From assembly GCA_016165875.1 (NCBI GenBank), contig JABBOT010000005.1, forward strand, positions 30,275,943-30,339,942: 64,000 bases of DNA, read 5' to 3'. Positions 22,086-63,799 of this stretch are shown here, piece after piece. Position numbers and translations under genes: made by a program. Below the pieces are notes generated by a model, which saw only the letters and a list, made by a program, of their open reading frames with translations, did not search any database and had not been told where the DNA came from. Position 1 is the stretch's first letter. The number at the start of each line of letters is the position of its first letter. The stretch comes from Acanthopleura granulata. Lineage: Eukaryota > Mollusca > Polyplacophora > Chitonida > Chitonidae.

Positions 22086-25000
22086 ATGTTTGAGGTTCTG
22101 CGATTTGGCGTGGCTTGGATGGCTATTTTGTTGCTGGCGGGAATGACCTCTGTCCCACCGGGGACAGACCAACCTTCTTGGTAAGCAGATGATACAAGTT
22201 TAATCTGATAGAGATTTCCAGACCTCTAATCAGTTCATAACTTGTTGGGCCCTCAGAGCAGATAGGGCAGTTAACATTTTAAATTCTTAGTGGTGATACA
22301 TCGAGAGCTTAGTGACGTTATTACTTTTCAGAGCATGATACATTATTTATTAACTGAACAAGCTTTGATATGTATATTCTCATGTTGCTTTGTGGGAAAT
22401 GTGACAACGCAGGGAATATCTAGCTGCTTGGTATTCTCACTTTTATATCTACTTTTTAATTTTTTTCTTTTTTTGGTTAAACATGTTTAAGCATACTTAA
22501 GCAATTTGCCCCATTTAAAATGTTTCAAGAAACCGGGTCTCATATCTCTATTAAGTCTTAAATCGTAAATGTTAACTGTAAGCCCCAAGTCCTAAGTTTT
22601 ACCAGTCGGTACACAGTAAAGCATTGGTATTATTGTTCAGTGAAACGATCGTATGTCGTAAGCTTTAACTGAAGACCTGAGTTACGAATTTCGACCTGTA
22701 GTGAAATAGGACCTCGGGCCCAGAACAATATTACAAACATAGTGAATTAAAATAAATAAAAACGAAATCCTACTTAAGAATTAACAATGATCTGGCCCAT
22801 TACGGGTGGAACGATGTTGACAAGTATGAATGCTTTCCACAATGTACTAAAACAAAGCTATATTGTCCGGATGCACGTTTAGGATATGTGAACCAAGAAA
22901 TCCTTAAAACTGGTTTCATTAAGCGAGATTCAATGGATATATAGGAAAATATATATTGGCAAAATGTTATTGAAAGAACTGCTGTACGTTGACTTGGTTA
23001 CAGTTGCCAGGCAGCAGTGGAGCGTGACAACATGTCATTTCGTCACTGGATCTCTCATCATTTCAAAGATTATGCACCCAGTTTTTCTCCACTTGTGGAC
23101 GACACAGACCAAGCTTACAACAAACAGCCTGGACTATGCTCCAAAACAGAATCGGGGTTGTGGGCTCGAATCGTTGGTGACAGAGAGTGAGTATTTATTT
23201 ATTTACTTGATTGGTGTTTTAAGAAGTACTCAAACATATTTCATTTATACGACCGCGGCCAGGCCATGGTGGGAGGAAACCGGGCATAGCCAGGGGAAAA
23301 CCGTCCGTAGGTTTCTGACAGACCTTCCCACCTGCGGTGTGTTTGGACATTTCAGAAATTAGAATAATTTCTTGTCGCCGTAGGAATTTATGTACGCTGT
23401 TCCTACAGGATGATAAAAAGATGGATATTTTCACATTACACATTTCACAACTTAGGTCTACATGTGGGTGACTTTATTTTTATTATTGTGTTTTGGATTG
23501 GTGTTTTACGCCGCACTGAAGGATATTTTACTTATACGACGGGGGCCAGCCTTATTGGTGGAAGGAAACCGGGCAGAGCCTTCCCACGTATGGCCGAGAG
23601 AAAGCGAGCATGAAGTGGGCTTGAACTTCTAATGATGGCATTGGTGAGAGGCTCCTGGGTCATTACATTGCACTAACGTCCTAGAGTGCTTTATCGTCGA
23701 TGTTCTGCTTTTACTCTCTATGTACTAATCGTTTGTATTAGTCTAGTAGGAGTACAGGCTTGTACGGATTTAGAGGGTACGATAAGACTGGCCTGTTATT
23801 AGATGAACTTGGCATATCGCAGGCATAGTATTATTTATTTATTTATTTGGTTGGTGTTTTACGTCGTACTCAAGAATATTTCACTTCTAAGAAGGCGGCC
23901 AGCATAATGGTTTGAGGAAACCGAACATAACCCGGGAGAAACCCACCGTCATCCATAAGTTGCTGGCAGGCCTTCCCACGTACGGCCAAAGAGGCAGGTA
24001 TAGTACCAGGCAGGCAGGGTATTCTTGGCGGATATGTTTATGAACATATTGTTAGGGAGGTCTAATATCACACTTGTAACTGGATGATATCAGACGTCAT
24101 CAGGATATGGTGAATCCCACATGACAGCATACCAATCGTAACCAAACCTGACCATTTTGGAAGAAAACTAAATTTAACAACATATTCTTCTGTTCCAGAC
24201 CTCGTCCCAACGGGTTGCTTCTCAGCATATTTTGTGAGACCCGCCACCATACCATGTGGATCATAAAATACATCTCTGGGGGTCAATCATGGAAAGAGGC
24301 TAGGAGAGCTGTGGAAATCATGACAGAGGAGGTTGTCACTGGTTGTTTGTGGACGCTTTCAGAACTAGCCAAGATATCCATAACGGTTTTAGGAGCAAGC
24401 ATGGAGGTTACAAAGAAGCACCTTCCGACGCCTTGGGTTAAAAAGTTGTCACGTTTTTCGGCTAATCTGGAAAAAATGGGCGCCGCTGACGTGGGTCTGT
24501 ACTCCGTAGACTTGATTGCCACCTATCTGCTGGAACTAACAATTACAGATGTCATCTCGTTTGTGAGAAGTTTGAAAGAACCTGCCACTGAAATCACGCT
24601 TGGCTGTGGTAATATGTTGTTTGATGCTGTAAGAAACGTGGTGGACACGTGGGAGCGTTTTATCCACTTCGTAGAGGACCACTCAGGACAACCATTCTTT
24701 CATTCTGGGTACGGAATATTTACTCTTATTTCAAGTCTGTTGAGCGTTTCCTTTGAATGCTCGAGGGCAGCTGCGGCACAGCTTTTGGAAGTCATAAGTA
24801 ATGTGGAATTTGGTGAAAATTACGCACGACTGTGTGAAATAGCGTCCAACAGTTTGGAATCGGGGGTACTAAATGTGATTGCCAAATTAATGTCGTACAT
24901 TCTCAGAGAAAGCTGTCGGCTTTATTCAGCAGTGATGTGTGTTTTGTGCCTCAGTTGTTCTTCTCTACCGAATTACATCACAGAAATGTTCAGTAACATC

Positions 25001-27572
25001 TGGACATCTTACGTAACGTCGGATTCAGTGCACTTCATAACAGAATGGCTTCGACGATGGTGCGAAACTTTCTACGAAGTCGTAATGACCTCAGTCCCTG
25101 TTGTCGTGGATGCTTTTGCAAAAACAAACAATTTTATTATATTTCCTGCATTTGAATTGTTGTCACAGGCTTTGTTTTCATTCGGCCTGCCTCTGGAAGT
25201 TCCTTCACTTGACGAGATCACACAATATCTTCAATACTTGTCAATAATCGTCCTGCAGGGAATGATAGCTGTTAGTAAAGGCTCGCTTCTAATGACCCAG
25301 AAGATCGGAGGAATCAGGGAAGTCAGCCATATTGATACAGTGGACAGTGGAGGATTGCTGTTACACTGGCCTGCCATTTATCGTCTCATAGGTGAGGAAA
25401 TCTTCTGGAAAATGCCAAATCAAATATGATTTGATTTAACAACCTAAATGGTTGTTATGGTCAGTTTAAGTACACAATTACCTGAGGGCAAAATGACGTG
25501 ATCATTCCCATAATACACAAATCGACACATTTTACGTTCATCCTTGAGCAAATTTTAAATAAAGTTAATGCATGTATTAAGAATACAGATTGAAAGATTT
25601 GATGTCGGAAAATATTAATGTAAGTGATAAATGCTTTAAACAAACAACTCCTGATAACAAACCCCCACAAAAGGCTGAATATATAAACGAAGGTTTAAGC
25701 AAGGAATCAAGTCTCATATGAGATGAGCTCATAGGCATCAATGTTTACGATGCCACTGATGTAAGAGGGAATTAATCCACAGTTCAGTAAGAACATTCTA
25801 TTTTCATTAGTGTAACTCAAGGATTCAGACTCCTTCCGACGAAGTCCGGAAAACAATTCAAGTTTATATAATTACACACAGATGTTCGAAGAAAAGGTAC
25901 ATTATGTCTGATGTACATTGTTGTTACTTAACAATTCCTATGGTTATTTTTGCTTCCTGAAGGTCTTGTTGCCGTCGGTGGACTGGTAATGCTGGTGGGC
26001 ATGTTTCACAAATTTCTTAGAGGTATGAAATATTATGTACTGTGCAAGAAACAGACGTCAAGACAAAGATATATGCTGGCTTCCATAGACAATACATATT
26101 CGGAAGGTTTTCGGATACTTCAGTAAGCGAAATTAGTTGTATTCTGAATACCTGTTCACCTAAATTGTAAGGTTTAATCATTTTAGTATCGTTGCACACT
26201 TATATTTATTCAAATCTTTGTCTAGTTGTGTTTCATGCTATACTGGAGACTGTTTGACCGACATAGTGGATTCCAGGCTATTGGGTAGAGGATTTGTGTC
26301 AAAGCGCCGTAACCAACTGTCTGTCAGAGGAGCCATGAAGACATCATCATGATTTATCAAAGGCTATCTCGTTGGTCGACGTCATGTGTTTTATTACAAA
26401 GAAACTATTCATCTGCGTTCAAGCGTTGAGATTTGTCGTATCAACTCGAGAATGGTCGTGGGTTTTATCCAGATTTTGCATGGTGTGATATGTGGGAGGG
26501 CCTCTGACACCGCCGTAGATCATATCGTCCGTTTCATATGCCATATCAAGCTTAACTTACATTTTTTTCCAACTGCATCGCAGTATTTTCATATTACAAA
26601 TTCATATCCAATTTGTCAAACCATTGTTTGTTTTCTTACGCAGTTTCTGAAAGGTACAGGCAATGGCATGTTTCTCCAGGACAGCTTGTTTGTGTAGGTG
26701 GAATGCCAGGTCAAGAGGTTGAACCAGCCACTGAAGCCAGTCGAGATACTGTGGAACGAAGAGAAAATGTCAACCAAGCAATCAAAATTATCGCCGAGGA
26801 ATATAATGCCATTGAGCGAATAAAATCCGACCCCCACTATCACCACTTCCTTATGGAAGAAAAACAGTCGAAGACATCGGCATATTTAAAATGCCTGCGA
26901 ATGAAGGCGTCCAGAAAAGCAAGAATCGGGTTAGTCAAAGAATGTAGGACGACAAGGAAACTACAACACGCGCACATCGTGGGGTTTGTAAAGTGGATCC
27001 GGGTTGGGAACATCCGAGCTTTGGGATTAGAATACACCCCTCACGGTCATCTCAGGTCCGCTATGGCATCACCGGGAACACCATTCAGACTCGCCGAGAA
27101 GATATCTGTATTTCGGCAGATCCTCACAGCCGTGATTTTTTTGCACAATGAAATGGCAGCACACCTTAACATTCGACCGGGAAGTGTCCTGGTTTTTAAC
27201 AAGTGGAAAAGAGTTAAACTCTCGGGATTTAGTCATGTGATTAAAGTTCGTCCGGACGAGATGTGTCAGGAGTACAACCTTCATCACGTGGCCGGTCCCA
27301 TGGAAGCACTGGTGCGTATGCGGCCTTACAACCCGTACAAAGCGGACACTTGGGCGCTCGGCTCGCTGCTATTTTATATAATCACGGGAGATTTTCTCCA
27401 CGAGAAAACCAATACGCCGGTTCCAGCCATTCTGCTTCCCGCGCTTAACGAATGTGACATGCGCTACCAGAAAGCCATTCTATCTACATTGACAAGTTTG
27501 CTATTTTACGAGCCTAAACATCGCCCTGAACTCATCGATGTATTGCAGACAATAGATAATCTGGAAAAGTAA
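22086..27572 (+). CDS. Single-pass membrane pseudokinase, paralog 1, 819 aa
   Basis: Exons are 22086-22180, 23004-23186, 24199-25391, 25963-26022 and 26644-27572 (phases 2, 2, 1, 1; 2460 nt). Order: signal peptide (MFEVLRFGVAWMAILLLAG); a short Cys-containing module starting CCQ; a 398-residue helical, Leu-rich exon with no family I recognise; a membrane segment (LVAVGGLVMLVGMF, about 493-507); and a kinase-like domain (about 570-815). Kinase landmarks: the VAIK-type Lys (YLKCL, about 593) and the alpha-C Glu (VKECR, about 610) are present. The HRD loop reads HLNIRPGSVLV, so the catalytic Asp is Asn. DFG is replaced by SGF. The DxWxxG motif is present (DTWALG). It is therefore predicted to be catalytically dead and to act as a scaffold or ligand-gated allosteric partner. 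Another ATG at 22074 opens only a six-codon frame. Exon borders and phases match paralog 2. Confidence 0.85.
23190..23350 (-). mobile_element. SINE fragment in pseudokinase 1 intron 2
   Basis: Tail 'tatttatttacttgattggt', then 'aggccatggtgggaggaaac'. It begins within a few bases of the exon 2 donor. Confidence 0.8.
23480..23695 (-). mobile_element. SINE copy in pseudokinase 1 intron 2
   Basis: 'ggtgttttacgccgcactga', 'ggaaaccgggcagagccttc', 'aggctcctgggtcatt'. An internal deletion removes part of the body. Confidence 0.8.
23830..24000 (-). mobile_element. SINE fragment in pseudokinase 1 intron 2
   Basis: 'ttatttatttatttggttgg', 'tcaagaatatttcacttcta', 'ccttcccacgtacggcc'. Confidence 0.8.
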
Positions 27573-32500: not shown

Positions 32501-33381
32501 CTTTACCTTAATCTCGTTCAATTAATATTACAGTGACATTCCGACGAAGACGACAAACCTGGAAAGGACAATCAGAGGTGCCTTTACCCGTGCTGAAAAC
32601 GATAGTTTCCAGGTATATCGCCCACAAACTAATAAAAACTGGGCCGAATTTCCATATGTTTCACTTGATATCCAGAGAAACACACAAGGCCGTGTTCATG
32701 AAATACCTGAGAAGGAATGGCAAAAAAGAAGCGCGACAATGTCTCGTGAAAGCCTACAGGGCAACACGAAGTCTGCAGCATCCCAACATTGTGCGATTTA
32801 TCGACTGGATTGAAGGCGTCAGCTCCTGTTGCCTCGGTCTGGAGTTTGCTTACTTTGGCAATCTGAAAGAAGCCATATCAGGAGTAACTGACAATATCAC
32901 GGTCTGGAACAAAGTGTCCATCTTTCAGCAGATTCTCTCAGCGGCCACCTTCTTGCAGAAGTCCGGAATTGCACATTTGAATATCCGTCCAGGAAGCGTC
33001 CTGGTTTTCGACAAATGGTACTGCGTGAAGCTGTCCGGATTCACCCACGTCATAAAAGTGCCTCCGACGAAATTCTGCCACCGGTTTGATCTTCACCCAA
33101 TCGCCATCCCAAACGAAGCTCTGAACGGAGAGCCTTACGATGCCTTCAAAGCGGACATCTGGGGACTGGGCTCCCTTTTCTTCTACCTTCTGGTAGGAGA
33201 TTTCTTTCAAAACGAAACCAACTTGCCGCTGCGTCGTATCATTTTCCCAGTTTTGGCCGACTGTGAAAACGCCCATAAGAAGACCATCATCGTCCTGCTG
33301 GCGAGCTTATTAGCCTGTGAACCGACAAGTCGTCCGGATCTGGATGAAATCCAGAATATAATAGAGAAATTACCACTGTAA
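29551..33381 (+). CDS. Single-pass membrane pseudokinase, paralog 2, 492 aa
   Basis: Exons are 29551-29669, 30689-30853, 31440-31714, 32076-32147 and 32534-33381 (phases 2, 2, 1, 1; 1479 nt). It is homologous to the gene at 22086-27572 exon by exon: signal anchor or peptide (LIWFIFLSICAAFIGLVAF), the CCQ-starting Cys module ending in a 'LCSKPRTGFWESL' block (paralog: 'LCSKTESGLWARI'), a short 92-residue exon 3, a membrane segment (ILAIGSGLWMVSVVAY) followed by KRLQ and RRRRQ basic residues, then the kinase-like domain. The VAIK-type Lys (about 267) is kept. The alpha-C Glu is Ala (about 284). HRD is HLN (about 358-360) and DFG is SGF (about 378-380); DIWGLG is kept. This makes it a pseudokinase by four substitutions. 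Exon 3 is about 300 residues shorter than in paralog 1. No ligand or pathway can be read from the sequence. Confidence 0.87.
29970..30010 (+). repeat. (ATT)n microsatellite
   Basis: About nine ATT units in intron 1 of pseudokinase 2. Confidence 0.85.
30015..30165 (+). mobile_element. SINE fragment in pseudokinase 2 intron 1
   Basis: 'catgggaaggtttgcttaca', 'cggtttcctaccaccgcaat', 'gtaaaatattcttgagaagg'. Confidence 0.7.
31065..31135 (+). repeat. CATA-rich simple repeat
   Basis: Imperfect ACAT/ACATAT runs in intron 2 of pseudokinase 2. Confidence 0.75.
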
Positions 33382-38100: not shown

Positions 38101-41100
38101 TCTACCGGCAATGCGCGGATAGTCCTGGGTTTCCCCACGGGCTCTGCCCACTTTCCTCCCAACATAATGCTGGCCGCCGTTGTATAAGTGAAATAATCTA
38201 GGGTGTGGCGGTAAGCACTAATCAGATACATCAATAAATTCTTCGACACTGTGGAAAACACGACTTGCTTAGTCCAGAAAGTGTGTTTACAACCGTTAAC
38301 TACCTATTAAATCTAAATAAAACCGAACGCCCGCCATATTTAGCGAAAGTTATGCATTGTTTTTGTGCTTCATAAGTGTTTGAGCATTAGAATGAGGCTC
38401 TTATTTTCTTTTGTCGTGAACGACAGGATATGGGAGCTATTTATTTATTTTATTTATTTAATTGGTGTTTTACGCTGTATGCAAGAATATTTCACTTATA
38501 CGACGGCGGTCAGCATAATGGTGGGAGGAAATCGGGCAGAGCCCGGGGGAACCCACGACCATCCGCAGAGTTGCTGGCGCACAAACGGTCGGAGAGGAAG
38601 CAAACATGAGCTGGACTTGAACTCACCTCGACCTGATTGGTGAAAGGCACCTCGGTCAATACGCCGCGCTGGTGTGCTAACCTCTTCCGCCACGGAGGCC
38701 TCCGAAGACCATTTCGACAACAAATCATCACCTTATGTTGTGGAAACTTTTCCTTCCAGCAATGGCCTTGGTGAATCTTGCATTCGTCATCGATGTAACG
38801 ACTATCGCGACAAATGCATTTATCACGTTACACGACGGGTGCATTATCCAATGTTATTGACCTATACCTACCTTTTTTGGCGTTCAGGGCGGCTGTTATA
38901 ATCATAGCCAAACCGGCCATTGCGTGGAATATTATAGAAGTCATCCGTCTTCCAGGTCTACCCATATGGAAAGCGTCAACAAAATGAATAACAAGTGTCC
39001 CACATTATGTGATTAAAATGTCATTAAAAATACATAAGTAATTCAGGGCTCGTTTGTGGTGAGAAATATTCTTAACAGCTTAACTTGTTTCTCTTTCACC
39101 CCAGACTATAGCTAGTCTGACTAGACAAAAAGAAAGAATGTCAAGCTAACAAAATAATCGTCGAACAAAATAAAGCCAGTTTATTGTGTTATTAACTTAT
39201 TAACAGGGTTACCTGATTTTGCTGATCAAAATGCAGGCGCAAACAACTCGATCAGAGCTAGAATATTTACCGTTTCATCGTGAAATACGTAATGATGGCG
39301 GCTGGGAATTCGACCAACACCATCAAGAAGAAATTCAGAAATCTGTCACCTCCCAACTGTGCTGAAGTCAGAGTGAGGCCGAAATACACCAGGGCGTTCA
39401 CAATCCTGTGGAATGAACAATGCGTATGCCGAATCAGATAGTTTAAGGTATTTTGTATCTTACGAAATGGCATGTGCAGACTGTCCTGAATATTGTAAAT
39501 ATATAAGTGTTCGGAACGAAACTCACTGCTTTTCTAGAGGATGTTTGTAGAGCATATATATCTGTACATGCTTGCAAAAAAGTAGCTATGTAGTATCTGG
39601 TTTTAGGCTAATATCAACTGTCATCTCCAGCACTACATTAAACATGTAGAAGTCACGTATATAAGAAATATACACATAACCGCAGCAATTATTAGAAAAT
39701 ATATACACTAACACAAAGCCAACCCACAAAAATAAAAGTCAGCCAAGAAGCGTTACGAAGTGTGCACGCTGTAATCTTTGATTCTTTATACTTACCACGC
39801 AAAGGCGAGAACAAGTGTCGTACAGCGAAGTTGGCTTTGTCTGAACACATCAAGGATACTGTACTTTAATTGAGCCACGTCAGTCTGTGAGGTCCCCTCA
39901 GAGATGTGGAAGTTAGAGCTGGATCTTCCGGTGTAGGCACTGATGCTGTGAATGGACGAATGCCGACTGATTCGTGTGATATCAGACCCAGACAGCGAGG
40001 CCACATCGTCGATCGCCTTCTCCGGTGGAGTGATATTATTGAGTCTGGAAGCTTGTTTCACAATGTTTTTCACTTCTGAGACCTTGTCGTTGGCCAACAG
40101 CCATCTTAGAGATTCGTCTATAAATCTGAAAGAGAGCGAATCAAAATAACAGTCTTACATTACACAGATAGGGCAACTTTACCATTAACTTGGAAGTGCG
40201 GTATTATATCACCAGCGGTGGCGTATAACAAAGTTCGCCCATTTGTGTTCAATGACATCATTTCCGATATTAGATGAAAAATACTCTTAAAATATAGGTG
40301 TTAACGGACTATGCCTCAAAAGAAGTGTTTTCATTTGTTTAAGCTAAGCCTTTTTCACTAGAAGCATAAACTTAGTTTAGAGTTCATGTAATATGAAATA
40401 GGAACAGGAATAGAGTCTGTGCAAGTAAGGGTTTTTGTTGGTGGTGCCCTTGAACAAGGAGATCGTAGCTACGATCGATTGTGACCCTATAACTGGCTTT
40501 AAAATCGACTGCAAAAATAAATCACGCCACTTGCACAAAGCAATTGTATATTGGCTGTAACTGTAAGTTACGATCGCGATCGTAGGCCAAATTTTACTCC
40601 TACATAAAAGGTGGCGTGCGACAATGTAGCAGTCAATAGTCTTTACTTGCCTTAACTCGCCTCGTGGTAGAGCAGCTACCAACAAAAACATGTGAAACAC
40701 GTTTCTAAAGACCTTTTTGAGACAATTAAATTGCTCAACTTAGCAAACTTTGAATCGACAAATAATAACTAGCTGTCTGTCTAAGGCAAGTATCTGTAGT
40801 CAAAATTAATTGGGTAACTGTAGAAAATTACAACTGTGTCATGCCGATTGTAGCGTGCAATCCCTTCGTGCAAGAGGGTTTCGATCGTAAGCGAGGGCTA
40901 CGACCGCGATCATTGTGTTTTACAATCAACTTAGACTTACGATCCATTTGTTGCAAGCGCTTCAAGTGCTACGTTGGACATCGCGATGATAGGCTAAATT
41001 GCGTGTGTTACATATGGGTATCACATGTATATGAAATGAATTGCCATGGGAGTTACAATCAGATTTGCTCTAGATTGCTTTAAAGAAGAGGACACTGCAA

Positions 41101-46132: not shown

Positions 46133-46847
46133 AGTTGCGGCTGTCAGGGGATCGCACCTGCCCCAACCGCTCCTCACTGGGATATTTAAAGTGAAGATAA
46201 AGTGGGTCACGTTCTTCCGCCTTCTTGTTAAACCAAGTGGATCACACATACAGGGTTATCTCCCTTAGAGCTACACGTTTATACATGCTCGCTTTCTTCA
46301 GCAAGCCGTTCTGTGTACTAAATGTATATAGATCGACACAGCGACGTATATCCGACCACGTCCCACAGCGGTCACCTTACACTCAGATCAAGTATAGCTG
46401 ATATGACGTTGAGACTATGATCGGGCCAGTGCAACGACTGTCAAGCTGCTCACCCATGCAAACATGTGTAAAGGCACGCTCGCTGACCTAGGGGCCTTGC
46501 ACAATCCACAGGGCTGCCATCTTGACTTTTTTCCGGCTAGGCGTACAATCACACGTACGTATATGTTTGTAATGTACAGAAATTATTTTAAGCAGTTTAG
46601 TAACTAAGCGGTAACGGCAGGGTATGTTTAAATTCATATTTGTGAATTTCAGTGTACATGCAGGCCAGTATGTACTTGGTTGATGATAGATTAATTACAT
46701 ATTGCCGAGCGTTACAGGTCACAGGTACATGTATTGCGGTATATACAGCAATACTTCAGTATATATACAAGCTATATAATGATCATGTATGTGAAGGATA
46801 CCTTCAAAGGACTTCTATTGATCTGAAGGAATAAACGCATTTAATTA

Positions 46848-47000
46848 TATATTTATTTATTTAATTGATGTTTTACGCCGCACCTACCGTAAGGAAAAGA
46901 AAAAAAAAGAAAAAAAATTTCACTTATACGACGGCGGCCGGCATAATGGTGGGATGAAACAGGCAGAGCCCAGTGGTAACCCATGATCATCCACAGGTTG
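46848..47000 (-). mobile_element. SINE fragment
   Basis: 'tttatttatttaattgatgt', then an A-rich interruption, then 'cttatacgacggcggccggc'. Confidence 0.8.
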
Positions 47001-47107
47001 GGAATAAGCTTTACCGCAAATTCCTATACCATGCAGTAGGTGTAGATGCTCGGTATATATCATGTAGATCTACATATGGGATACAACATGTTCAACGTTA
47101 GTATAGT

Positions 47108-47245
47108 TATTTATTTATTTGATTACATGGTGTTTTACGCTCTACTCAAGGATATTTCAGTTATACAACGGCGGCCAGCATTATGGTGGGAGGAAACCGC
47201 GGGCAGTGCTCGGGGAAACCCACGACCACCCGCGGATAGTGGACG
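47108..47245 (-). mobile_element. SINE fragment
   Basis: 'tttatttatttgattacatg', 'acaacggcggccagcattat', 'cccacgaccacccgcgga'. Confidence 0.85.
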
Positions 47246-47324
47246 TACATATATTTTCATAGTGTCATAATCTGGAAGCATTACTGAATTGGGCATAATA
47301 TATGCTAATTAACCCAAACGAAAG

Positions 47325-47462
47325 ACGGCCTGCCAGAAACCGGCATGCGGATGATCTTGGGTTCCTGTGGGCTGTGCACGGTTTCCTCCCACCATAAGGC
47401 TAGCCGCCGTCGGATAAGTGACATAGTCTTAAGTACGGCGTAAAACAGCAATCAAATAAACA
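47325..47462 (+). mobile_element. SINE fragment
   Basis: 'cggtttcctcccaccataag', 'tcttaagtacggcgtaaaac', tail 'aatcaaataaacaaa'. It faces the two preceding copies. Confidence 0.82.
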
Positions 47463-48968
47463 AAGGAAAGGCGTTTAATGGTCTCAATAGGTTGCGTGCA
47501 ACACACGACATAGCCTCCCTCAAAGCAAGGCGCCGCCATGGTGGCTGACACCTGAGACGCTTGGCAATGCACACGCTGTTATGAAGTTCAGTTTTCTAAT
47601 TTGAATAAACTGCTCATGTGCCATTTAAAGATACTCATGTCTGTCCATTAGGGAGAGGAATTTCAACTCTCAGAATACTTTAGTAATACTTGTGCAGAAT
47701 GACTTTCTTGAACGCCTCTCCTGACATTGTTTTTACTTGGCTGCAAACGGTCAAATAGCATTATCGTACTCAGATGCCTGAGTCTACATATCATGCCTTT
47801 AGATGCAGTCACACACAGTACCATTATATAAATATTATGTGATATGGAATCACACACGTACATGCAATAACCAAAACACACATTTACACATGTTGTGTTT
47901 CTTTTGTCTACATACTTGAAAGATAAGACTGAGATATAAACCGAGGTCATATTAAACAGTGCACAAAGGGGCGGACATAGGCCTACATAATACATGTACC
48001 ATAAAGGAATAGGCATGCCTATGGATATTTATAGACCTACGTATTGACGGGGTCCGTCACAAGAAATTTAAATTAAAATACGCGCTTAATATTGTTTCCC
48101 GCGGCGATGTCATTTCATTAATATACAATTTATCCAAATCACGGTAGGCCTAGGTCTGTATATGAAATATTGTTTCAGAAATACACATCGGTCTATTTAT
48201 AATTACTTTATGAATACTGAATTACGCTATAACCGTATCAGTTTGTGGAAGCTAAGTTTCGGGACTCCTTTAATTGCCAGATGTCAATAATCTGAGACAC
48301 AACCGGACAATTAAACCACTGCGGTTTCATAGTCTGAACGTTCAGGTCATGGACTAAGCGCTATCCAGTCACTAATTAAAACTTTTATATAAATAACAGA
48401 GTTTGGTTTCCTGTATCTGTTCTTCCTTCTGCTGAGTTGGCAAATCCTCAAATACGGAGAAAACTCCACCCCATATGGTTCTATGTTTGAGCCCAGTGTT
48501 TACGCGAGCCTCTCGGAGCCTAACTATCAGCGATAGCTTGTCGTCCAACATGTCGGACGGACGGCGGACTCACAAGACCTTTATTGCACGCAACCTATAT
48601 TTCGACATTATTTAAGAGATCATCGGGGAAAAAAAGTTAGAGTTTCCTTCCTATAAATTTTGGAAATTCCAAAGATTCAATAATGCGAACTCAACCCCTA
48701 AACATACCAAGTTAAACAATTAAACAATTAAACATACCAAGTTAAACACCCCCCACCCTCCGCCTCCTCGCCCCCTTTCTTTCGCCAATTATATAAGAGT
48801 TCGAAATCTGGTTTAATTCGAAGATATGTTTTCTTATAGTGTTAGTGATAGCATTTCTTCCAGCTCTGTTTCATTATTTCTTTTCCAGACAAATATAGGC
48901 CTAATTATCTGCGACACGATGGAGGAGTGCTAGTAATTTGCTTTTTGGAGCTTTCTCTATAGCTCATT

Positions 48969-51900
48969 ATGTCTCGCATGCTGTCTTCGTCAAGCGGTAA
49001 AAGGGGTAATCGCTTTTATGGCTTATGGCATAGCCGAAGATGGACTACTTCAGCGTTGACATCAGATTCCCCTGAACATTCCCAAGTCCAAGGAACAACA
49101 TCTACAGTCTGGAAGCCTTCTGTGGAAGATGGGCACTCGTCTACTCACGACAGTAGCATCACAGCGTCAGACAAGATCGAAGAGGTTAACAGAGGTATAG
49201 AACATGAGGAGCGAAGAATGTTTTTCGAAAGCAGCGGAAAGCGCCGGCTTAACTTTCTAGGTGACAAAAAATCAGGTGCTCGCCGTGTTCCGAGAACTTC
49301 ACGGTACAGTTCCGATTCAGACGACAGCGAAAGCGACAATAAAACAGGCAGACAGGGTCGCCGATCGAGGAGTAGATCCCGTATGTCCTCTGAACGCAGC
49401 GGGAAACAAGGGTACAGATATGTGAGATCAGGGAAGTCCGATACCAGCGACGATGGGAGAAGATCTCCTCCCAGAATATCCCCAGAACACCGTGGAAGAC
49501 GTGTATTCCGGCATGAGAAGGCGAGTTCTGAGAGCAATCACGGAAGAAAATCCAGGTGGAGGGTGGCAAGTGAACGAGAAATAAAGCAAGGTCAGCAGTT
49601 CAGTCAAGCAATATCGTCGGATTCTGACTCCGATAATTGGGAAAGAAGATCCAAGACTAGGATGTCTTCTGGACACAGAGGGGAACGCAGCAATATTACA
49701 AAAAGAATGCGTTCAAGAAGAAGTGGGAAGCGTGGTTTCGGATATTACGGAGAAGCTGATTCCACCAAGGCCAAAGAAGACAACGGAGGTAGTTTTACAT
49801 CTAACAGAGAATTGGTTATGAAAATGTTGAAGAGAGAAAACGACCTGCGATTCTCGCGAGAAACCCAGTCCTTGTATGACGAGACGAGTGGTTCACTGGG
49901 CCAAGCATCAGTGCCTCCGGGCACTATAGAAGATAATATACAAATGCAGGTGCTGCAAGAACACAACATAGAGCCCACACCCAGAAATATCCACAAGTAC
50001 AGATGCCTTAACTATTTGTATAGGGACGATGAAGAGGTATGTCGTAAATTAGTGGTACTTTTTCCCGAATCTGTCAGATTTATATTTAGTCTCATGCACC
50101 AATAATGAGACTTGCACGCATTGGCAGTATAACCAACGAATTTCTGCCATACACCTTAGGATAAAGAATAAATTAATTAAATTTAACCTTTGTATTCAAG
50201 ACTGTATTAAAGTAAGAGGTGTACAACCTGAGGACAGCTTAACAAGAGATGAGCTGTATGAAACAGGCACTTTTACTCAAAAAAGAAATCCTATTTACTT
50301 GTTGTAAGCTTGCATGTATCAATCAGTGTTCAGTGGAAACCGTGCTCAATGGCATGGAGCTATAGTTCAATGGCAATAGGTAGTGGTAGGCTAAAGTAGA
50401 AAAACTACATGTGAAAACAAAAAGTGGTAGCTATTACGTTTTGTTTAATTATCACCCTGCATGCATGATTTTTAGTTGTGATTTAAACGTTGCAGCAAGT
50501 CTACCTTTGTGTGTTTATATTACGGGCGTATATATTGAGTTCTATGATTCGCGTCCATTGAGGTGTGTATCTAATTACAGGTTCGAGAGCTGGTGGTTTA
50601 CATGAGTAAAGATCGCAGCCGGGTAGGTGACCTCCGCGTGGGCGACCTTTGTCCTGATGTAGCTTTGCTAAGTACAGACCAGGTTAAACTGAAACTGACC
50701 GATTTGTTACCGTGGGATGGAACACCTCTCCTGCTCTTTGCTGCATCAAGAAGCTGACCTCCATTCCAGGTTTGCGTTCCTATTGATTTCCTAGCTCGAA
50801 TAAATCTGTGACAGAGGGTGGACACTGTAGGCCAATATAGTCATCTTAAATGTATTACAATTGGGTATAAAGCTGTATATATTAGCATAAATACGACCGT
50901 AAAACGCCAGTTAATTAATGATCAACATACAGAACAAAATGGTACCTTCACCGCATATTTCTGAATGAGAGTGTGGATTACGCTTACTGGTCAATTTATG
51001 AGAAAGTTTGTGTTGCAGGTCTCTGTGCTGAACGGAGGCCTGCGTGAGGTTTTCTTGCAGTACCGGGGGCAAGCTTCTTTCCTCATGGTGTACGTCTTGG
51101 AGGCCCATGCTAAGGACGAGTGGCCCCTGGGGTTGGAGCGGAGCTCATTGCCGCAGCACCGGACCATCCAGGACAGGATCGCTGCTCTCAGGTACACATG
51201 GGCAGTCGCAAGCCATTCGAGGCGCACGGATTAATAAGGAAATAATGATTCTTTATCTAGTTTTTGTTGTTCATTTTAGCGCGATAAATGCGGAAGAGTT
51301 GAAATTTTAGAACGAGACGCCGAAGGCGATATGTTCCGAAGCATGTGTCTGTGAATGTATACCCGTTGACGCTCAACGTTGTATGTAGTAGGAAGATCGA
51401 CAGCATAATAGAATATGCCATATGGAGCACAGGGCTGTTAGGCTGAAGGTCGAAAGAGGGAATCGCATGTTGGAATCCAGTTGGCTAACTTTGTTTTGTT
51501 TCCCGCTTTTGTAAATACATGTAGGTGTTTCTTGTTTCGCCTGCACTTCGTGTATATCTGCTAAAGAGTGTATTATGGGAACTATAGCTGTGAATAGCGA
51601 ATGCTATTGTGAAGTAGGTGTCAAATTACATTGGTTTATCTGCAAATTGGATGTATGTGTGGAATACCAAAGCGGAAGATATTCAGAAGTAAAAATTCTT
51701 AATGTAGCTCAGTTTTGGACAGATGTCACGGAGACCTTATCTGCACTCCCTATTACAGCGTGCAAAGCAATTTAGCACGCAATGTCTTTTTTATCTTCGA
51801 ATCAAAGCAACAAAATATCAAATCAACAAGTTCTACTGAAAATTGAAAGAAAAAATTCAATCAGTTGTATGGTATCTTGCTTTGCATTTTCTTTGGCTTT

Positions 51901-52183
51901 CAGTGATCTCGAAGACTAGAATTGATTTGTGGCGGACGTATTGCTAATATGTTGTTTCAGGAAACTGTTGTCGGAAGACAAACATGGAACTTTCTCTGAA
52001 GACCTTAACTGTGACAGCCAAATTCCCGCTATTGTGGACACTATGGACAACAGATTTAACGAGCTGTTCGCCGCTTGGCCCGAACGTCTGTACGTCGTCA
52101 AGAACGGGAAGCTGGACCTGATCACATACCCTGAACATGGCTACCTCCATGAGGCCGCGAGGAAATACCTTCAGCAGCTATAG
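48969..52183 (+). CDS. Deiodinase-family selenoprotein with Arg/Ser-rich N-terminal extension, 550 aa
   Basis: Exons are 48969-50036, 50581-50769, 51019-51191 and 51961-52183 (phases 0, 0, 2; 1653 nt, counting TGA at 50755-50757 as Sec). Exon 1 (356 residues) is disordered and rich in Arg/Ser/Gly, with recurrent SGKRG-like motifs and SRSRS runs. Exons 2-4 match iodothyronine deiodinases: VGDLCPDVALLS, then LLLFAASRS-U-PPF (Sec about residue 415; family GSxTUPPF), FLMVYVLEAHAKDEW (family FLxVYIxEAHxxDGW), IVDTMDN, PERLYVV and a C-terminal GYLHEAARKYL. Deiodinases reductively remove iodine from iodothyronines with Sec as nucleophile; the substrate here is unknown. No membrane anchor is seen, unlike typical family members. 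The fusion rests on a strong donor (GAAGAG|GTATGT) and phase. Alternatives are a separate 378-residue protein ending at 50105 and a deiodinase starting at ATG 50602. Confidence 0.8.
50755..50757 (+). other. Predicted selenocysteine codon (TGA)
   Basis: The TGA lies in frame between SRS and PPF, exactly where all canonical deiodinases have Sec. The frame stays open for 63 codons of conserved sequence in exon 2 and continues through two more phase-matched exons with family motifs. A plain stop would waste all of that conservation. Confidence 0.88.
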
Positions 52184-52332
52184 CAATGTTGTCACAGTGT
52201 ACATCCACCGAAAATATAATACAGTAGACTGCATTCTGTATACCGCAGAAATTATGTCAGGTATTGAGATATGAATTTTTACAAAACTTAATGCACACTA
52301 AATATAATCACAGTCCATTTGCCATATTCTTC

Positions 52333-52338
52333 AATAAA
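52333..52338 (+). terminator. Proximal poly(A) signal of the selenoprotein gene
   Basis: AATAAA 150 bases after the stop. Use of this site would remove the candidate SECIS. Confidence 0.4.
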
Positions 52339-52735
52339 GGACAAAAATAATGGAGGTGGCGGAAGGGTTTTATTAAGTGTTCACGGTAAAATTATGTGTC
52401 ATCATTTAAAGTTTTAATTCCAAAGTTCAGACCACATGATGCAGTGTACCATGTTCCAATACGAAGTCATTTTCAAGTGCAGGCTACACGTAAGATGTGA
52501 TGTCTTGATTAAGAACTTAGAAGGCGCAAAACTTGCTGCAGATTCCATGACAGCGAGAGATGGAAGGCTAGGCACATTTGTCTATTGACGACTTTTCTGC
52601 AGCGTATTTCTTCACATTAAAGTTATGACAAACCACGTGTTTATACATTTATATGTATGGCTTAGTCGACAGTATCTTTTCTGTAAAATATTATTGTACC
52701 TGTATATGCGCCAGAAACCCCTTTGTATAGATTTA

Positions 52736-52778
52736 ATGACAGAAACACATGAAACACGATGAACGTCTGTTTCTAGAT
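52736..52778 (+). promoter_or_regulatory. Candidate SECIS element
   Basis: ATGA (52736-52739) opens the motif and TGAC supplies the 5' quartet. An 11-position helix follows: 52741-52747 pairs with 52768-52774, a C-C mismatch comes next, then 52749-52751 pairs with 52764-52766. The apical loop is 12 nt, starts with AAA (52752-52754), and the 3' quartet is AGAT (52775-52778). This layout (ATGA, about 11 bp, AAR, GA) fits eukaryotic SECIS form. The basal stem is weaker: CAGAA/TTCTG and ACCCC/GGGGT pairs at 52712-52721 with 52794-52807. Confidence 0.55.
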
Positions 52779-52898
52779 GTTTCTCTGTATTGCGGGGTCC
52801 ATTTCTGTGTGTAAATCTTGTACAAATAATAAGGATATAACCAAAAGCATTAACTGTAAAAAATATATACATGTTTTTCTGTGTACACATGGCATACA

Positions 52899-52904
52899 AA
52901 TAAA
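52899..52904 (+). terminator. Distal poly(A) signal of the selenoprotein gene
   Basis: AATAAA downstream of the candidate SECIS, 716 bases after the stop. Transcripts ending here would keep the hairpin. Confidence 0.45.
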
Positions 52905-53479
52905 TATCTCCAGCTTCATTCTCAGTCTTCTATACATGTATTATCGTTTCGTGGCTGGTGTTTATATACCTTAGGCTGTATATATATATATATATTCCCC
53001 TGCTGCACTGATCGCGGGGCCGTGGTGAAAATAAGTGGTCCGCAATGCTAAATTGGAGTCTGATCAATTTTCAGTGAAATCTTCTTGTCGTGCATGTATA
53101 CCTGGACATCGGATGTGGAACAGTCCCTCAGTTTAGTGATTCAGATTGATCGTGGCAAAGGACACAGGGAATTTGTAAAGATAACTGTATCAATATATTT
53201 TAACACAAAGAAAAACGCGTTCAGAAAAGTTACTTATAGCTTGACACATAAGGGAAGGCAAATGACGCATAAACAGATCTATAGATCTCAGAGATGGCAG
53301 ATCTGCCCGGCGCTCTGATTTACACTACTCTTATACAAAAGGTAATAAAAGAGGAAGACAAAGCGAAGTATACAATATGCTTTTTATAGCACACATGAAT
53401 TCACGTAATTCACGTATGTGAGTGAATCTTACCACCTTCAAGATAGCAGTATATACAGAACAAATGTAAGTTGTTGAGT

Positions 53480-53711
53480 TTATAAAACCCAACTTTGCGA
53501 GCGAATCTACACCGTCCTTGTTCGGCGGCGACCTATTTCGGGAGATTTGTCTCTATCGGGAAAAGAGCGGAGGATTTCCTGTGGATTATTTGGTTTCCTT
53601 TACCAAAACGCTGACTTTCTTCACATCTACCTGAGCCGACCTTCATAGCGTGGATGGGTAGCTGTGGTAGCTTTCTTCGGATTCTTGGTTATAGTTATTT
53701 GGCAAGTGATG
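53480..53711 (+). other. Possible orphan promoter and first exon
   Basis: A TATAAAA box near 53480 is followed by a GC-richer stretch and ATG at 53654. The frame reads MGSCGSFLRILGYSYLASD up to a good donor (GATG|GTGAGT at 53711/53712). No matching downstream exon was found. It may be chance. Confidence 0.2.
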
Positions 53712-54306
53712 GTGAGTTCCTCCGAATTAAACAATAAGTGAAACATGACTGCATTATAAAACCAGTAGATATCGATAGGCCAACACAAATAAATAAATGG
53801 GTTGTTTTCACATCTTCAGTTTCTCGTGCTTTAATTTTTGGCTTGATAATATAGCATAACAGCCCTGCAAGGAAGGGTATTGTGTATGTGTGAAGCGGTT
53901 TTTGTCAGTACAGAAGCATCTCTGAAAAAAGGACACCAGGAAATTCATGATTTTGAAGTGATGCATGCCAAAGTCAAGTTAAATGAAGCGATAAAGGATT
54001 TGAATAACATTTTATGACAGAAAATGAAAACAGAAGCATTGAGGAAATAAACTCTTTTTGTAAAATTAACCAGACTATGTATCACCTTCAAATATAATGC
54101 ATACAGTTTGTGTACCCTGCATGTAGTACCCCAAACGATAAATCTGCAAAACTCAGCAATTCGCTCGTTTATAGTACCATGCATACGCAATTTGTCACCT
54201 GATCCTCACGGAAAAGCCCTTTGATCGAAAGCATTTTTACTTGTGGTTTGTTTGACACTTGCAGACTGCTCCCCAGAGTTTTCTGTTGGTGGAATGACAG
54301 GTGATG

Positions 54307-55359: not shown

Positions 55360-55858
55360 TAGGTAATGAACGAGCAGATAGTCTGACTAAATGAGCCCTA
55401 AGTCGGCGTGATGTCACTTGTAATCTGTCCATATCCGAGGCCCTAAAGGAAGTAAAGTCGTTATCATTTAAACTAAGGCACGTGGAGTGGGCTCTTCAGA
55501 CGCTTCATTTAGCCCTGTCAAATTTCATAACAGCCTCAATTCTGTCTTTGCAAGCAGAAAAGCAGAAATCTTGTGTTTGCGACTTCGGTCAGGACATCTC
55601 CCAGATAATAATTTCTTAGAAGGAGTCAAGATAAGCGATTCGGACTTGTGTGTTGTTTGCAACACAGAGGAACCCATCCGTCATCTTATACTGGTGTGTC
55701 CCGGTCGACTTTGCAAAGACAAATATTACTTTCTGATTTTGCAGACGCCGGGATCGTTCAACCCAACTCTGAGACCCGTGTTTTGTCCGGTGAAAAATGG
55801 AAGTTTAGTTTTTAATGTTGTGGGGAGTGATTTATACAGGATCCAGAGATTTTAGGCC
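55360..55858 (+). pseudogene. Remnant 3' end of a LINE (RNase H end and C-terminal Cys/His region)
   Basis: In one frame, GNERADSLTK at about 55360-55395 is the usual end of an RNase H domain and is followed at once by a stop. A second frame from about 55487 reads LCLRLRSGHLP, then a CVVCNTEEPIRHLILVCP block. That is the Cys/His pattern found at the C-terminus of several non-LTR retrotransposon ORF2 proteins. The frame change and stop show that it is dead. Confidence 0.7.
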
Positions 55859-61300: not shown

Positions 61301-63799
61301 TGACGTCACACCGACTTTTCTCTGGCCCTAAAATAGAACTTAAAGGTCATATCAGCTCTTTCATACACAGGCACACATTACATGTGTATGGTTCAACGAT
61401 ACTTGTAATTTCCTTTACCATTTCATAGTCAAGAAGGCAAAGATGGCCGCTGGAGTATCCGCCACTGCTAGCAGGAAGAAATTGGTAAATCTGTCCCCGG
61501 CTAGCCGAGAGGAGGCTAGACTCAGTCCGAAGTAACCAAAGCTGGCGACAATCCTACAAGCACAGGAATAGAAAACATATTCATCACAGCTATCATTATA
61601 AACTAATTTAACACAGTGACACTGGATGATCCATAGTGAGCTGGACTTATTAGGCATTTTTGTTGCCGGCAAACGATTCCTCCGTCAAAGAAGAAAGGCA
61701 TTTTTGTTCAGTTGATATCGTGAATGTAATGAGTGTAGCATGATCACACACTGCCCATGTGACCAAACTCTGACATAAGTATAATATGTTGCTGCCGGTA
61801 ACTCCATAAATAAAGTAGAATATGAAGCAGTGGCAAGCATATGGTAAGCTCAAAACAGGTGTGTGTGTGTGTGTATAACCTGCCTAAATTAGTCATACAG
61901 ATCAATTTCCCGTTCAAGCGGTTTTTTTGCATTATTGTCTCACCAAATATAAACCATGGCGAACATAAATTTTCTGAGGTGCCCATTCGTCAGGATATCG
62001 CAGCAGCCGTATTTGGAGGTTGGCTTCTTGAATGACACATTTTCCATTTCGTCGGCCATACGTTGCGTGTTGTCATCGGTATTTGTAGAGGTCGCGTTTG
62101 TCCCGCTGTCGAAATCCATGGTCAGATCATCCTCAGCGCCGAAGTGAACTTTGTTCATTTTAGCGACCTTCTTTAAAATCCGTTGTGCTTCCCGCCCCCT
62201 TCCGTTAGCAACTAGCCATCTTGGGGATTCGTCAAGAAAGCTAGGAGAAGTAAATGCATCACGAAAAAACAAATAGGACAGTACATAAGCAGAGAATAAA
62301 AAGAAATATAGCATAAATTATATGCACATAAATGTTCAAAGAAGACATTTAAGTCAAATGTATTAATTGCTCCAGAGAATAAAATTTCTACCTCACAGAT
62401 GTAAAGCAAACGCAATTAAATGTCCACAAAAACATTTCAGTAGTTTACAGCACACAGAATCAACTGATTCTCGACAGTTGGATTTCAAGGCTAGGTTTTC
62501 TTGACCGCAGTTTTATGTTACAATAAAAATATTTCATTTTTTCTCAGTAGAAAAGGAGTGCTCCGATCTACAGCGGTCTGTGGAATTTTATGATGAAATG
62601 AAACAGATACAGCGGAATACAGAAAATGAGCTATATTTTTTTTAAAAATGCCATTATTTCAGGTAAATTTAAACATGACCTACACCTGCTCCTATGCTTA
62701 TCGCCATATGGACTTTCCTAAGGGCACTCTCAGCATTTGCTTAGTTTGTTGACTAATTTCAGTAAAATAAGCCTAAGAAATCGACAAATCAGAACATGTG
62801 AATGGGACCTGAAATGTCGTGTAGTTCTTACAGTGTATTAGGCAGCAGCAGGATAAGTGACATTCCACTGAAGACTGCCTGCAGATAGCGCCAGCTGAGA
62901 TCCCGCAAGGCGTAGCCCAGTAAGGCTAAGGAACCGTTAAACAGCCCCCAGATGACGCCAGTGAGCAGTACAATGTGGGCACGGTGCCCTATGCTGGTGA
63001 TCTCAAGGGGAAGAACAGCACCCAGCATGACGAGGCCCTACAACAACACACATACATGTGATACATCCCAAATATAAAGTGGGAGGTTGTGCTGTGGTGG
63101 CGGTGGCGGTGGCGGTGTGTGTGGGGGTGGGGTGGGGGGTGGGTGGTAGGCTCCATCCAACTGTGAATTCTGCAAACAACCATCAATTTAATTTTATACA
63201 CATGAAATGATATCATCTAAACAAGAATAAACGTTTTCACAGAGCACTTTCAAACCATTTCAGGTGTATGTCACAGCAAAGTTCTAGTGTATTCCTCGCT
63301 TATTTTACATCTCACAATCGACCAAGTCAATGGAGAACCTGTTCCGTCTGAAACAACTAGCGCACAACTCGTGTGATCTGTTTTCAGTGCTGCCTTTGCA
63401 CTGGCGATTTACCGCCAAGTACTCAAATGTTACAAGAGAAATATAATTAATCTGACCGGAAGCCGGGTCGCCACCGCACAAAAAAAAACTGTCCCACTGT
63501 GCAAGTTAATTTAATCTAAATCACTAATGCCGCTTTCGATGATGCTGAACAAATCTACTTGCGTTTACCTGTTGCAATGCTCCAGTCAAGAACCGTAAAA
63601 TGGTGAAAACGATTATGTCAGGCGCAAAGATGGTAATCGTGGAAACAATCAGCATGGTCCACTGTACCAAGAGAAATATCCTCTTGCGGCCGAGCTTGTC
63701 TGACAGGTACGAGAAGAAAGTCGCCCCAAAAGCCTGGCCCCCAATGAGCACCGTCTGGGTGAGGCTGGATAGGTACTCCTCACTACATACAAGCTCCCA
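58388..63799 (-). CDS. SLC22-type organic ion transporter, second paralog, 3' eight exons (455 codons)
   Basis: Exons in transcript order: 63799-63569, 63037-62832, 62240-61944, 61553-61419, 60660-60572, 60264-60150, 59414-59342 and 58609-58388. All phases fit. The gene is cut by the window edge; by analogy with the paralog, two more exons (TM1 and the extracellular loop) should lie beyond 64000. Motifs: WELVCSEEYL, the MFS loop SYLSDKLGRKRI, FLDESPRWLV opening the cytoplasmic loop, MKWFGRR, GKFGVSAVF...TSELFPTTIR, SRIGGMVAPF and PETRDKELPQ. Exons of 231, 206, 135, 115 and 73 nt have exactly the lengths seen in the gene at 35164-46132; the loop exon (297 against 330 nt) and the last exon differ. 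The substrate is not assignable. The stop is TAG at 58388-58390. Confidence 0.93.
58717..58880 (+). repeat. Degenerate minisatellite, about four units of 40-55 bp
   Basis: CCAGTACCGGTTGGCCAG or close variants recur four times, each preceded by a 'gtactgg'-like piece. It lies in the last intron of the second SLC22 gene. Confidence 0.7.
60810..60925 (-). mobile_element. SINE fragment in the second SLC22 gene
   Basis: 'tttatttatttatctacttg', 'attggtgttttacgaatata', 'ggggaaacccacgagcatgc'. It lies between the 61419-61553 and 60572-60660 exons, in sense orientation. Confidence 0.8.
61037..61098 (+). repeat. Dispersed repeat, copy 2
   Basis: Partner of 57597-57655. Confidence 0.6.
63094..63150 (+). 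repeat. GGTGGC repeat and G-run tract
   Basis: Four GGTGGC-type units are followed by G5-T-G4-T-G6-T-G3 (about 63123-63143), a pattern able to form a G-quadruplex on the + strand. It lies in an intron of the second SLC22 gene. Confidence 0.8.

Follow-up and report, generated by a model that had tools for sequence, protein, structure and literature searches.

A gene of the chiton Acanthopleura granulata was characterized, in which a long Arg/Ser-rich first exon is joined in phase to the exons of a deiodinase-type selenoprotein. It is located at positions 48969 to 52183 of a stretch of 64,000 nucleotides (contig JABBOT010000005.1, positions 30,275,943 to 30,339,942, forward strand), which was analysed as a whole and is called the window below. 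Judged from the sequence, it is near certain that this is a single four-exon gene encoding an Arg/Ser tail together with a deiodinase-type domain that has an in-frame TGA. In the usual description, deiodinases are anchored in membranes and control how much thyroid hormone is present locally. The interpretation favoured here, held as a whole with moderate confidence, is that the chiton product is an unanchored selenoenzyme of a deiodinase clade, and that its tail would direct it to acidic partners or into the nucleus.

Structure of the gene and its counterparts

The four exons (1068, 189, 173 and 223 nt) add up to 1653 nt, that is 551 codons including the stop, and specify a product of 550 residues. 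The joined frame contains only two stop codons, the TGA at codon 415 and the terminal TAG at codon 551. All three introns have GT-AG borders; exon 1 ends with GAAGAG in front of the donor gtatgt, and exon 2 follows ttacag and opens in phase 0. An in-frame TAG is present at 48960-48962, two codons from the ATG, and the frame of exon 1 is the second-longest stop-free frame in the window (380 codons). An in-phase fusion of 551 codons had been proposed in the initial annotation, and it is upheld by the exon sums, by the phase-0 junction and by the same join in a paralog and in Liolophura sinensis. The coordinates are compiled in Table 1.

The paralog is located on contig C4 (L006, C4:8676001-8686000). 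It has the same start, a GTACGT donor and exons 2 to 4 of 189, 173 and 223 nt with the phases kept, and the GT donor as well as the AG acceptor of the exon 1/exon 2 junction are retained. Its TGA is at codon 279 of 415 codons in total, and its exon 1 is 136 codons shorter, nearly all of which are missing from the Arg/Ser region. Ordered blocks of 74-83% identity connect positions 46313-53967 of the window with this locus (some outer blocks overlap repeats), indicating that a single duplication covered the entire gene. In the part before the selenocysteine position the two copies are 82% identical, while each of them is about 62-63% identical to Liolophura, and thus the duplication probably followed the split of Acanthopleura and Liolophura. 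The possibility of a pseudogene was rejected, because frames and phases are intact in both copies and the ratio of nonsynonymous to synonymous substitution rates (dN/dS; Nei-Gojobori method, two sequences, i.e., the gene and its paralog, and small samples) is below 1 in every segment (0.04-0.55); as the value is pairwise, one copy may be less constrained. A search of the 606 Mb genome with exon 1 (E <= 1e-3, five candidates scored) matched only these two loci, which are a lower bound, and in each of them exon 1 stands before deiodinase exons.

Protein searches reached four proteins, which implies no absence outside the chitons. One of them, P0001 (Liolophura sinensis, 'uncharacterized protein LOC135470424', 390 aa, an NCBI model), contains the Arg/Ser exon and the same junction to exon 2. 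Liolophura sinensis is also the source of the closest annotated protein. The C-terminus of P0001, FAASRS, ends exactly at the selenocysteine position. A second Liolophura model of NCBI, P0003 ('type I iodothyronine deiodinase-like'), which is located on a contig of equal length (60,359,117), comprises the portion from exon 3 onward, preceded by 15 residues, the last five of which (KFVLQ) look like translated sequence from the end of the second intron in the window. It therefore seems that annotation has split the Liolophura gene at the UGA into P0001 and P0003, and since one half is then labelled 'uncharacterized protein' and the other is a 'deiodinase-like' stub, the fusion is invisible in the Liolophura record. 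A further protein, P0002, has the same exon 1 followed by V-C, as the window reads across its GTATGT donor. Between the gene and P0001, 14 of 14 residues (VRELVVYMSKDRSR) are identical across position 50602, where a separate start for the deiodinase part had been considered.

Table 1. Features of the fusion gene, in coordinates of the window
Feature	Position	Strand	Basis
Exon 1, 356 codons: Arg/Ser/Gly-rich N-terminus and conserved segment	48969..50036	+	open frame and donor; homologous first exon in the paralog (L006:5526-6185), P0001 and P0002
Arg/Ser region of low complexity with five SGK motifs (residues 1-275)	48969..49793	+	SGK excess; dN/dS 0.50; charge-hydropathy plot
KRMR, nuclear-localisation-like (presumed)	49701..49712	+	sole K[KR]x[KR] match in exon 1; one match in each of 4 sequences, at the aligned place
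Residues 276-356, conserved segment preceding the core	49794..50036	+	dN/dS 0.06; identity to paralog and Liolophura
Exon 2, 63 codons, in which the deiodinase domain begins; contains the Sec codon	50581..50769	+	PF00837 from residue 374; common to P0001 as far as the TGA
In-frame TGA, codon 415, probable selenocysteine (SRS-U-PPF)	50755..50757	+	same TGA in paralog; Liolophura model ends there
Exon 3, with EAHAKDEW and PQHRTIQDR	51019..51191	+	57/58 residues identical to paralog; dN/dS 0.04
Exon 4 to the TAG stop	51961..52183	+	joined frame; paralog; Liolophura P0003
SECIS-like hairpin, 3′-UTR	52726..52789	+	RF00031, 23.9 bits; paralog copy 29.4 bits
AATAAA polyadenylation-type signal, 3′ of the hairpin	52899..52904	+	also in paralog

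The deiodinase domain, the in-frame TGA and the 3′-UTR hairpin

In the joined protein, residues 374-529 matched the Pfam family T4_deiodinase (PF00837) with an E-value of 1.8e-20 and 73.7 bits (curated cut-off 27); exon 1 alone matched none of the Pfam families, the RNA recognition motif (RRM) included. The closest solved structures were a type III deiodinase (4tr3, E 4.9e-13) and a type II deiodinase (9h48, E 7.2e-9). The genome was searched with the PF00837 profile, and five places were found, namely the present gene, its paralog on C4 and three canonical copies (L001-L003); the count of relatives in the genome rests on these places and on the exon 1 matches. The canonical copies are single open frames of 248-261 residues, counted from a Met picked by the analyst, with one TGA, the motif GSCT-U-PPF (U, selenocysteine) and a hydrophobic N-terminus. 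Two of the three have opposite orientations and are about 4 kb apart on contig C24. The absence of a membrane anchor from the fusion protein, which had been noted from the start, was corroborated: ahead of the core, Kyte-Doolittle means over 19 residues reach -0.08 at most, compared with 0.35 in the paralog and 1.97-2.55 in L001-L003.

The residues of the active site were mapped by hand on alignments with Dio3. Ser167, Sec170, Tyr197, Glu200, His202, Trp207, His219 and Arg225 are kept, and the Glu/His/Trp/His network of the active site is present as E447, H449, W454 and H466. Thr169 is replaced by Ser and Cys168 by Arg, and Arg275 is lost. In Dio3, the exchange Thr169Ser is reported to reduce the activity by 60% and the Arg275Ala mutant to have a low activity; Arg275 was proposed to be a substrate clamp, and roles were assigned to the Glu/His/Trp/His residues (PMC7506546). 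Because the catalytic residues are kept but Thr169 is Ser and Arg275 is lost, selenol catalysis is likely, while it is uncertain whether an iodothyronine is the substrate. Two apparent peculiarities were dropped as distinctive features: the Pro at the place of Dio3 Phe258, because L001-L003 have a Pro as well, and Asp-Glu-Trp for Asp-Gly-Trp, where L001 reads NEW and L002 DEW.

A phylogenetic tree (nine rows, 151 columns, unrooted, four of six inner branches unresolved) contained a split (100/99) that separates the gene, the paralog, P0003 and P0004 from the canonical copies L001-L003 and mouse Dio2 and Dio3. P0004 is a more distant relative (43-44% identity) from a contig of 1226 bases that has the same signatures EAHAKDEWPLG and FAAWPERLYVV. 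Since this more distant sequence shares both signatures, the clade is probably older than the two chiton genera. With DIO1-3 the chiton protein has in common the PF00837 match, the in-frame TGA before PPF, the Glu-Ala-His and Gln-His-Arg motifs and a selenocysteine insertion sequence (SECIS)-like element in the 3′-untranslated region (3′-UTR). It differs from them by its 550 residues, the three introns, the Arg/Ser tail, the lack of an anchor, the motif ASRS-U and the lack of a counterpart of Arg275, and it has an insertion of 11-13 residues relative to L001-L003. The mussel proteins McDx and McDy are reported to have 258 and 242 residues, respectively, and both have Sec and a SECIS (PMC8481496). 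The bacterial 'deiodinase family protein' model NF038285 matched residues 375-526 weakly, with 51.4 bits far below its curated cut-off of 250, and two pattern scans of prokaryotic genomes and one of viral contigs confirmed no relative.

The reading of the TGA as a selenocysteine codon, which was also part of the initial annotation, gained support from the paralog, which has the same TGA, and from the Liolophura model, which ends there. The 3′-UTR was searched with the Rfam family SECIS_1 (RF00031), and a match of 23.9 bits (curated cut-off 35) was found that starts 543 nt past the stop codon; no other SECIS match is listed for the window at E <= 10. The paralog has a hairpin at the aligned place, 573 nt past its stop, with 29.4 bits and an E-value of 0.0026, likewise below the cut-off. 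The hairpin block is identical at 60 of 64 bases between the copies, a modest excess over the 450 of 528 bases in the UTR before it. The hairpin has the AUGA, followed by 12 bases up to the AAA at the apex, a stem of seven pairs and the GA in place. A hand-made SECIS pattern had four matches in the window on both strands, and a lower stem of seven is present at 52736 but in none of the other three; 1.4 matches per strand were expected from 60 shuffles, and 0.5 when the lower stem had at least five pairs. Because the pattern alone is non-specific, the argument for the hairpin is carried by its position and by the paralog. A scan with a SECIS-type pattern at looser settings yielded nothing convincing after L001-L003.

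The Arg/Ser tail and the conserved segment of exon 1

Of the 356 residues encoded by exon 1, 61 are Ser and 51 are Arg (17% Ser, 14% Arg, 8% Gly). Residues 1-275 are of low complexity, include acidic SDSD blocks and fall on the disordered side of the charge-hydropathy plot. The initial description of the N-terminus as RS-like thus had to be narrowed: it applies to about the first 275 residues, which are basic and Arg/Ser-rich, but not to the last 81 residues of exon 1, which are conserved and not of the RS type. Also for the first part the RS character is only moderate, because the best 50 residues consist of Arg and Ser to 52%, yet at most nine RS/SR dipeptides occur in 50 residues. SR proteins have a dense RS-dipeptide domain of at least 50 residues. 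The chiton tail resembles them in having a basic Arg/Ser-rich stretch, and it differs from them in that it has no RRM, that the RS dipeptides are sparse, and that SGK motifs and acidic SDSD blocks are found in between.

The SGK motif occurs five times (residues 9, 89, 144, 154 and 252), compared with 0.28 expected occurrences, and none of 5000 shuffles equalled this number. P0001 and P0002 also have five SGK motifs each, again with no equal among 5000 shuffles for either. Four of the five motifs align with those of P0001 and P0002; the SGK at residue 154 is unaligned, and the fourth SGK of the other two proteins reads SGH here. A KRxR cluster is found once per sequence at the aligned place in four of four sequences; in the present gene it is KRMR, which we take to be nuclear-localisation-like. 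A neuropeptide precursor, for which GKR motifs were considered, was dropped; there is no hydrophobic signal at the N-terminus.

The conservation of the tail bears on the most serious alternative, which we regard as a real but minor possibility: the protein might be a soluble cytosolic deiodinase or a general selenol reductase, and the Arg/Ser tail might be a fast-evolving disordered extension without any targeting role. The dN/dS value of 0.50 for residues 1-275, the much shorter exon 1 of the paralog, and an identity to Liolophura of 138 of 246 aligned residues in the tail and of just 11 of 43 in the linker 19-81 are in accord with this alternative. The motifs of the tail are kept, in contrast: 17 of 18 residues are identical to P0001 (16 of 18 to P0002) at positions 1-18, 34 of 41 are identical to Liolophura at positions 110-151, and the KRMR cluster is kept in four of four sequences, which argues against this alternative.

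The second part of exon 1 behaves differently. Residues 276-356 are identical to the paralog at 75 of 81 positions and to Liolophura at 59 of 81. Within exon 1, dN/dS falls from 0.50 in residues 1-275 to 0.06 in residues 276-356; exons 2, 3 and 4 have values of 0.22, 0.04 and 0.44, respectively, and the entire core has 0.22. Because 0.06 compares with 0.22 for the core, residues 276-356 are constrained at least as strongly as the core between the two copies, and they behave like a part of the enzyme. No convincing alignment of this segment to the linker of canonical deiodinases was obtained.

Proposed function, rival explanations and neighbouring frames

The following mechanism is proposed for the unanchored selenoenzyme. 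The hairpin in the 3′-UTR would recode the UGA at codon 415 as selenocysteine. Residues 276-356 would replace the anchor and the linker of ordinary deiodinases and would aid dimerisation. The substrate would be soluble, and the selenocysteine would attack a carbon-halogen or a peroxide bond in it before being regenerated by thiols; the chemistry would be a reductive deiodination or a related halide or peroxide reduction. The basic tail, which is probably phosphorylated, would together with KRMR target the enzyme to acidic partners such as RNA and chromatin or into the nucleus, and not to a membrane. A nuclear or ribonucleoprotein location, which had been suggested initially, is plausible. It is tempting to speculate further that the chitons have a separate membrane-free class of selenoenzymes, whose Arg/Ser-SGK tail would place selenol chemistry in the nucleus or on RNA or chromatin, e.g., to dehalogenate or reduce a hormone-like ligand beside a nuclear receptor, but this extended version is tentative and rather unlikely.

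Several observations weigh against the proposed mechanism. The KRxR cluster lies inside an Arg-rich stretch and is thus weak evidence for a location. The tail of the paralog is much shorter, its first motif is decayed and only two SGK motifs are left versus five, and therefore at least a part of the tail is dispensable. Exon 4 is rather relaxed, as its dN/dS value indicates, and a structure prediction of P0001 was too poor to use (mean predicted local distance difference test score of 38, two sequences). The Arg/Lys clamp near Dio3 Arg275 is not kept and GSCT-U reads ASRS-U, which makes thyroid hormone doubtful as the substrate; in two of the copies L001-L003 the clamp is likewise hard to make out, and hence it is a weak criterion. 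Both hairpins score below the Rfam cut-off. In addition, the fold of minimum energy (-15.4 kcal/mol) differs from the SECIS-like one (-11.0 kcal/mol), and with a z-score of -1.45 a SECIS is not significant by folding energy alone. When the canonical loci L001-L003 were searched together with 1.5 kb of flank, SECIS_1 matched none of them at E <= 1, so that the SECIS_1 test is without a positive control in this genome.

It is improbable that the TGA mostly acts as a stop, in which case the main product would be an Arg/Ser protein with half a fold, as in P0001, and the full selenoprotein would be minor or selenium-dependent. The automated annotation of P0001 indeed ends at this codon, and mRNAs lacking the hairpin could arise from the use of an AATAAA that precedes it at 52333. 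This signal is lost in the paralog, while the one downstream of the hairpin is kept, and constraint is strong right after the TGA, i.e., in exon 3, both of which speak against this alternative. That the N-terminus is a mitochondrial presequence-like signal and not a nuclear one is a little less probable still. It is basic and Ser-rich, has no acidic residue among the first 32, and its first 18 residues are nearly invariant in P0001 and P0002, but the same SGK motif, which is Gly-rich and not helix-like, recurs internally, and its first copy is decayed in the paralog. It is very improbable that two genes are present, one for an Arg/Ser protein with its end at 50105, to which the frame of exon 1 continues, and one for a deiodinase starting at the in-frame ATG near 50602, because the Liolophura model joins exon 1 to exon 2, the seven residues before the Met at 50602 are identical in all three proteins covering them, exon 1 was found only before these deiodinase exons, and the splice sites are kept in the paralog. 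That the two parts are independent genes, or that a promoter lies within intron 1, was rejected in view of the Liolophura model and the residues identical across the junction.

The fusion was compared with published systems. Deiodinase-family selenoproteins of marine invertebrates are already known and numerous. The deiodinase genes of marine invertebrates are reported to be expanded, with 4 genes in Lottia, 12 in Capitella, 9 in Branchiostoma and 11 in Trichoplax, so that extra selenoproteins of the family, as in the chiton, are common in these animals; an N-terminal extension of this kind is not mentioned in the accessible part of that report (PMC3473315). Algal selenoprotein fusions such as SELENOM-pVHL and GST-MSRA are similar in that a selenoprotein domain is fused to another region, but they belong to other families, and the accessible part of the source includes no deiodinase fusion (PMC7539508). 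In the part of the open-licence deiodinase and selenoprotein literature that was searched, no title or abstract on an Arg/Ser-deiodinase fusion was found. The existence, within one animal, of a conserved class with a tail but no anchor alongside three anchor-bearing deiodinases would mean that the fold has been put to use elsewhere in the cell, and it would offer a direct test of what deiodinase-like selenoproteins of non-vertebrates do.

Some other frames of the window were also inspected. The frames 26556-27572 and 32512-33381 (+) are related to one another and protein-kinase-like (PF00069). Active kinases have HRD and DFG motifs; by eye, HLN and SGF were found at the motif places, and the two frames are possibly pseudokinases. 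The longest stop-free frame in the window, 24152-25429 (+) with 425 codons, had no Pfam match at E <= 0.01. Two similar exon-like frames (DESxRWL) are present at 61940-62317 and 39792-40154 (-), of which the former matches the sugar transporter family PF00083 right at the cut-off and the latter matches nothing in Pfam. The frame 55472-55855 (+) has a weak match, below the cut-off, to the reverse-transcriptase zinc-binding family zf-RVT and is probably a retroelement remnant.

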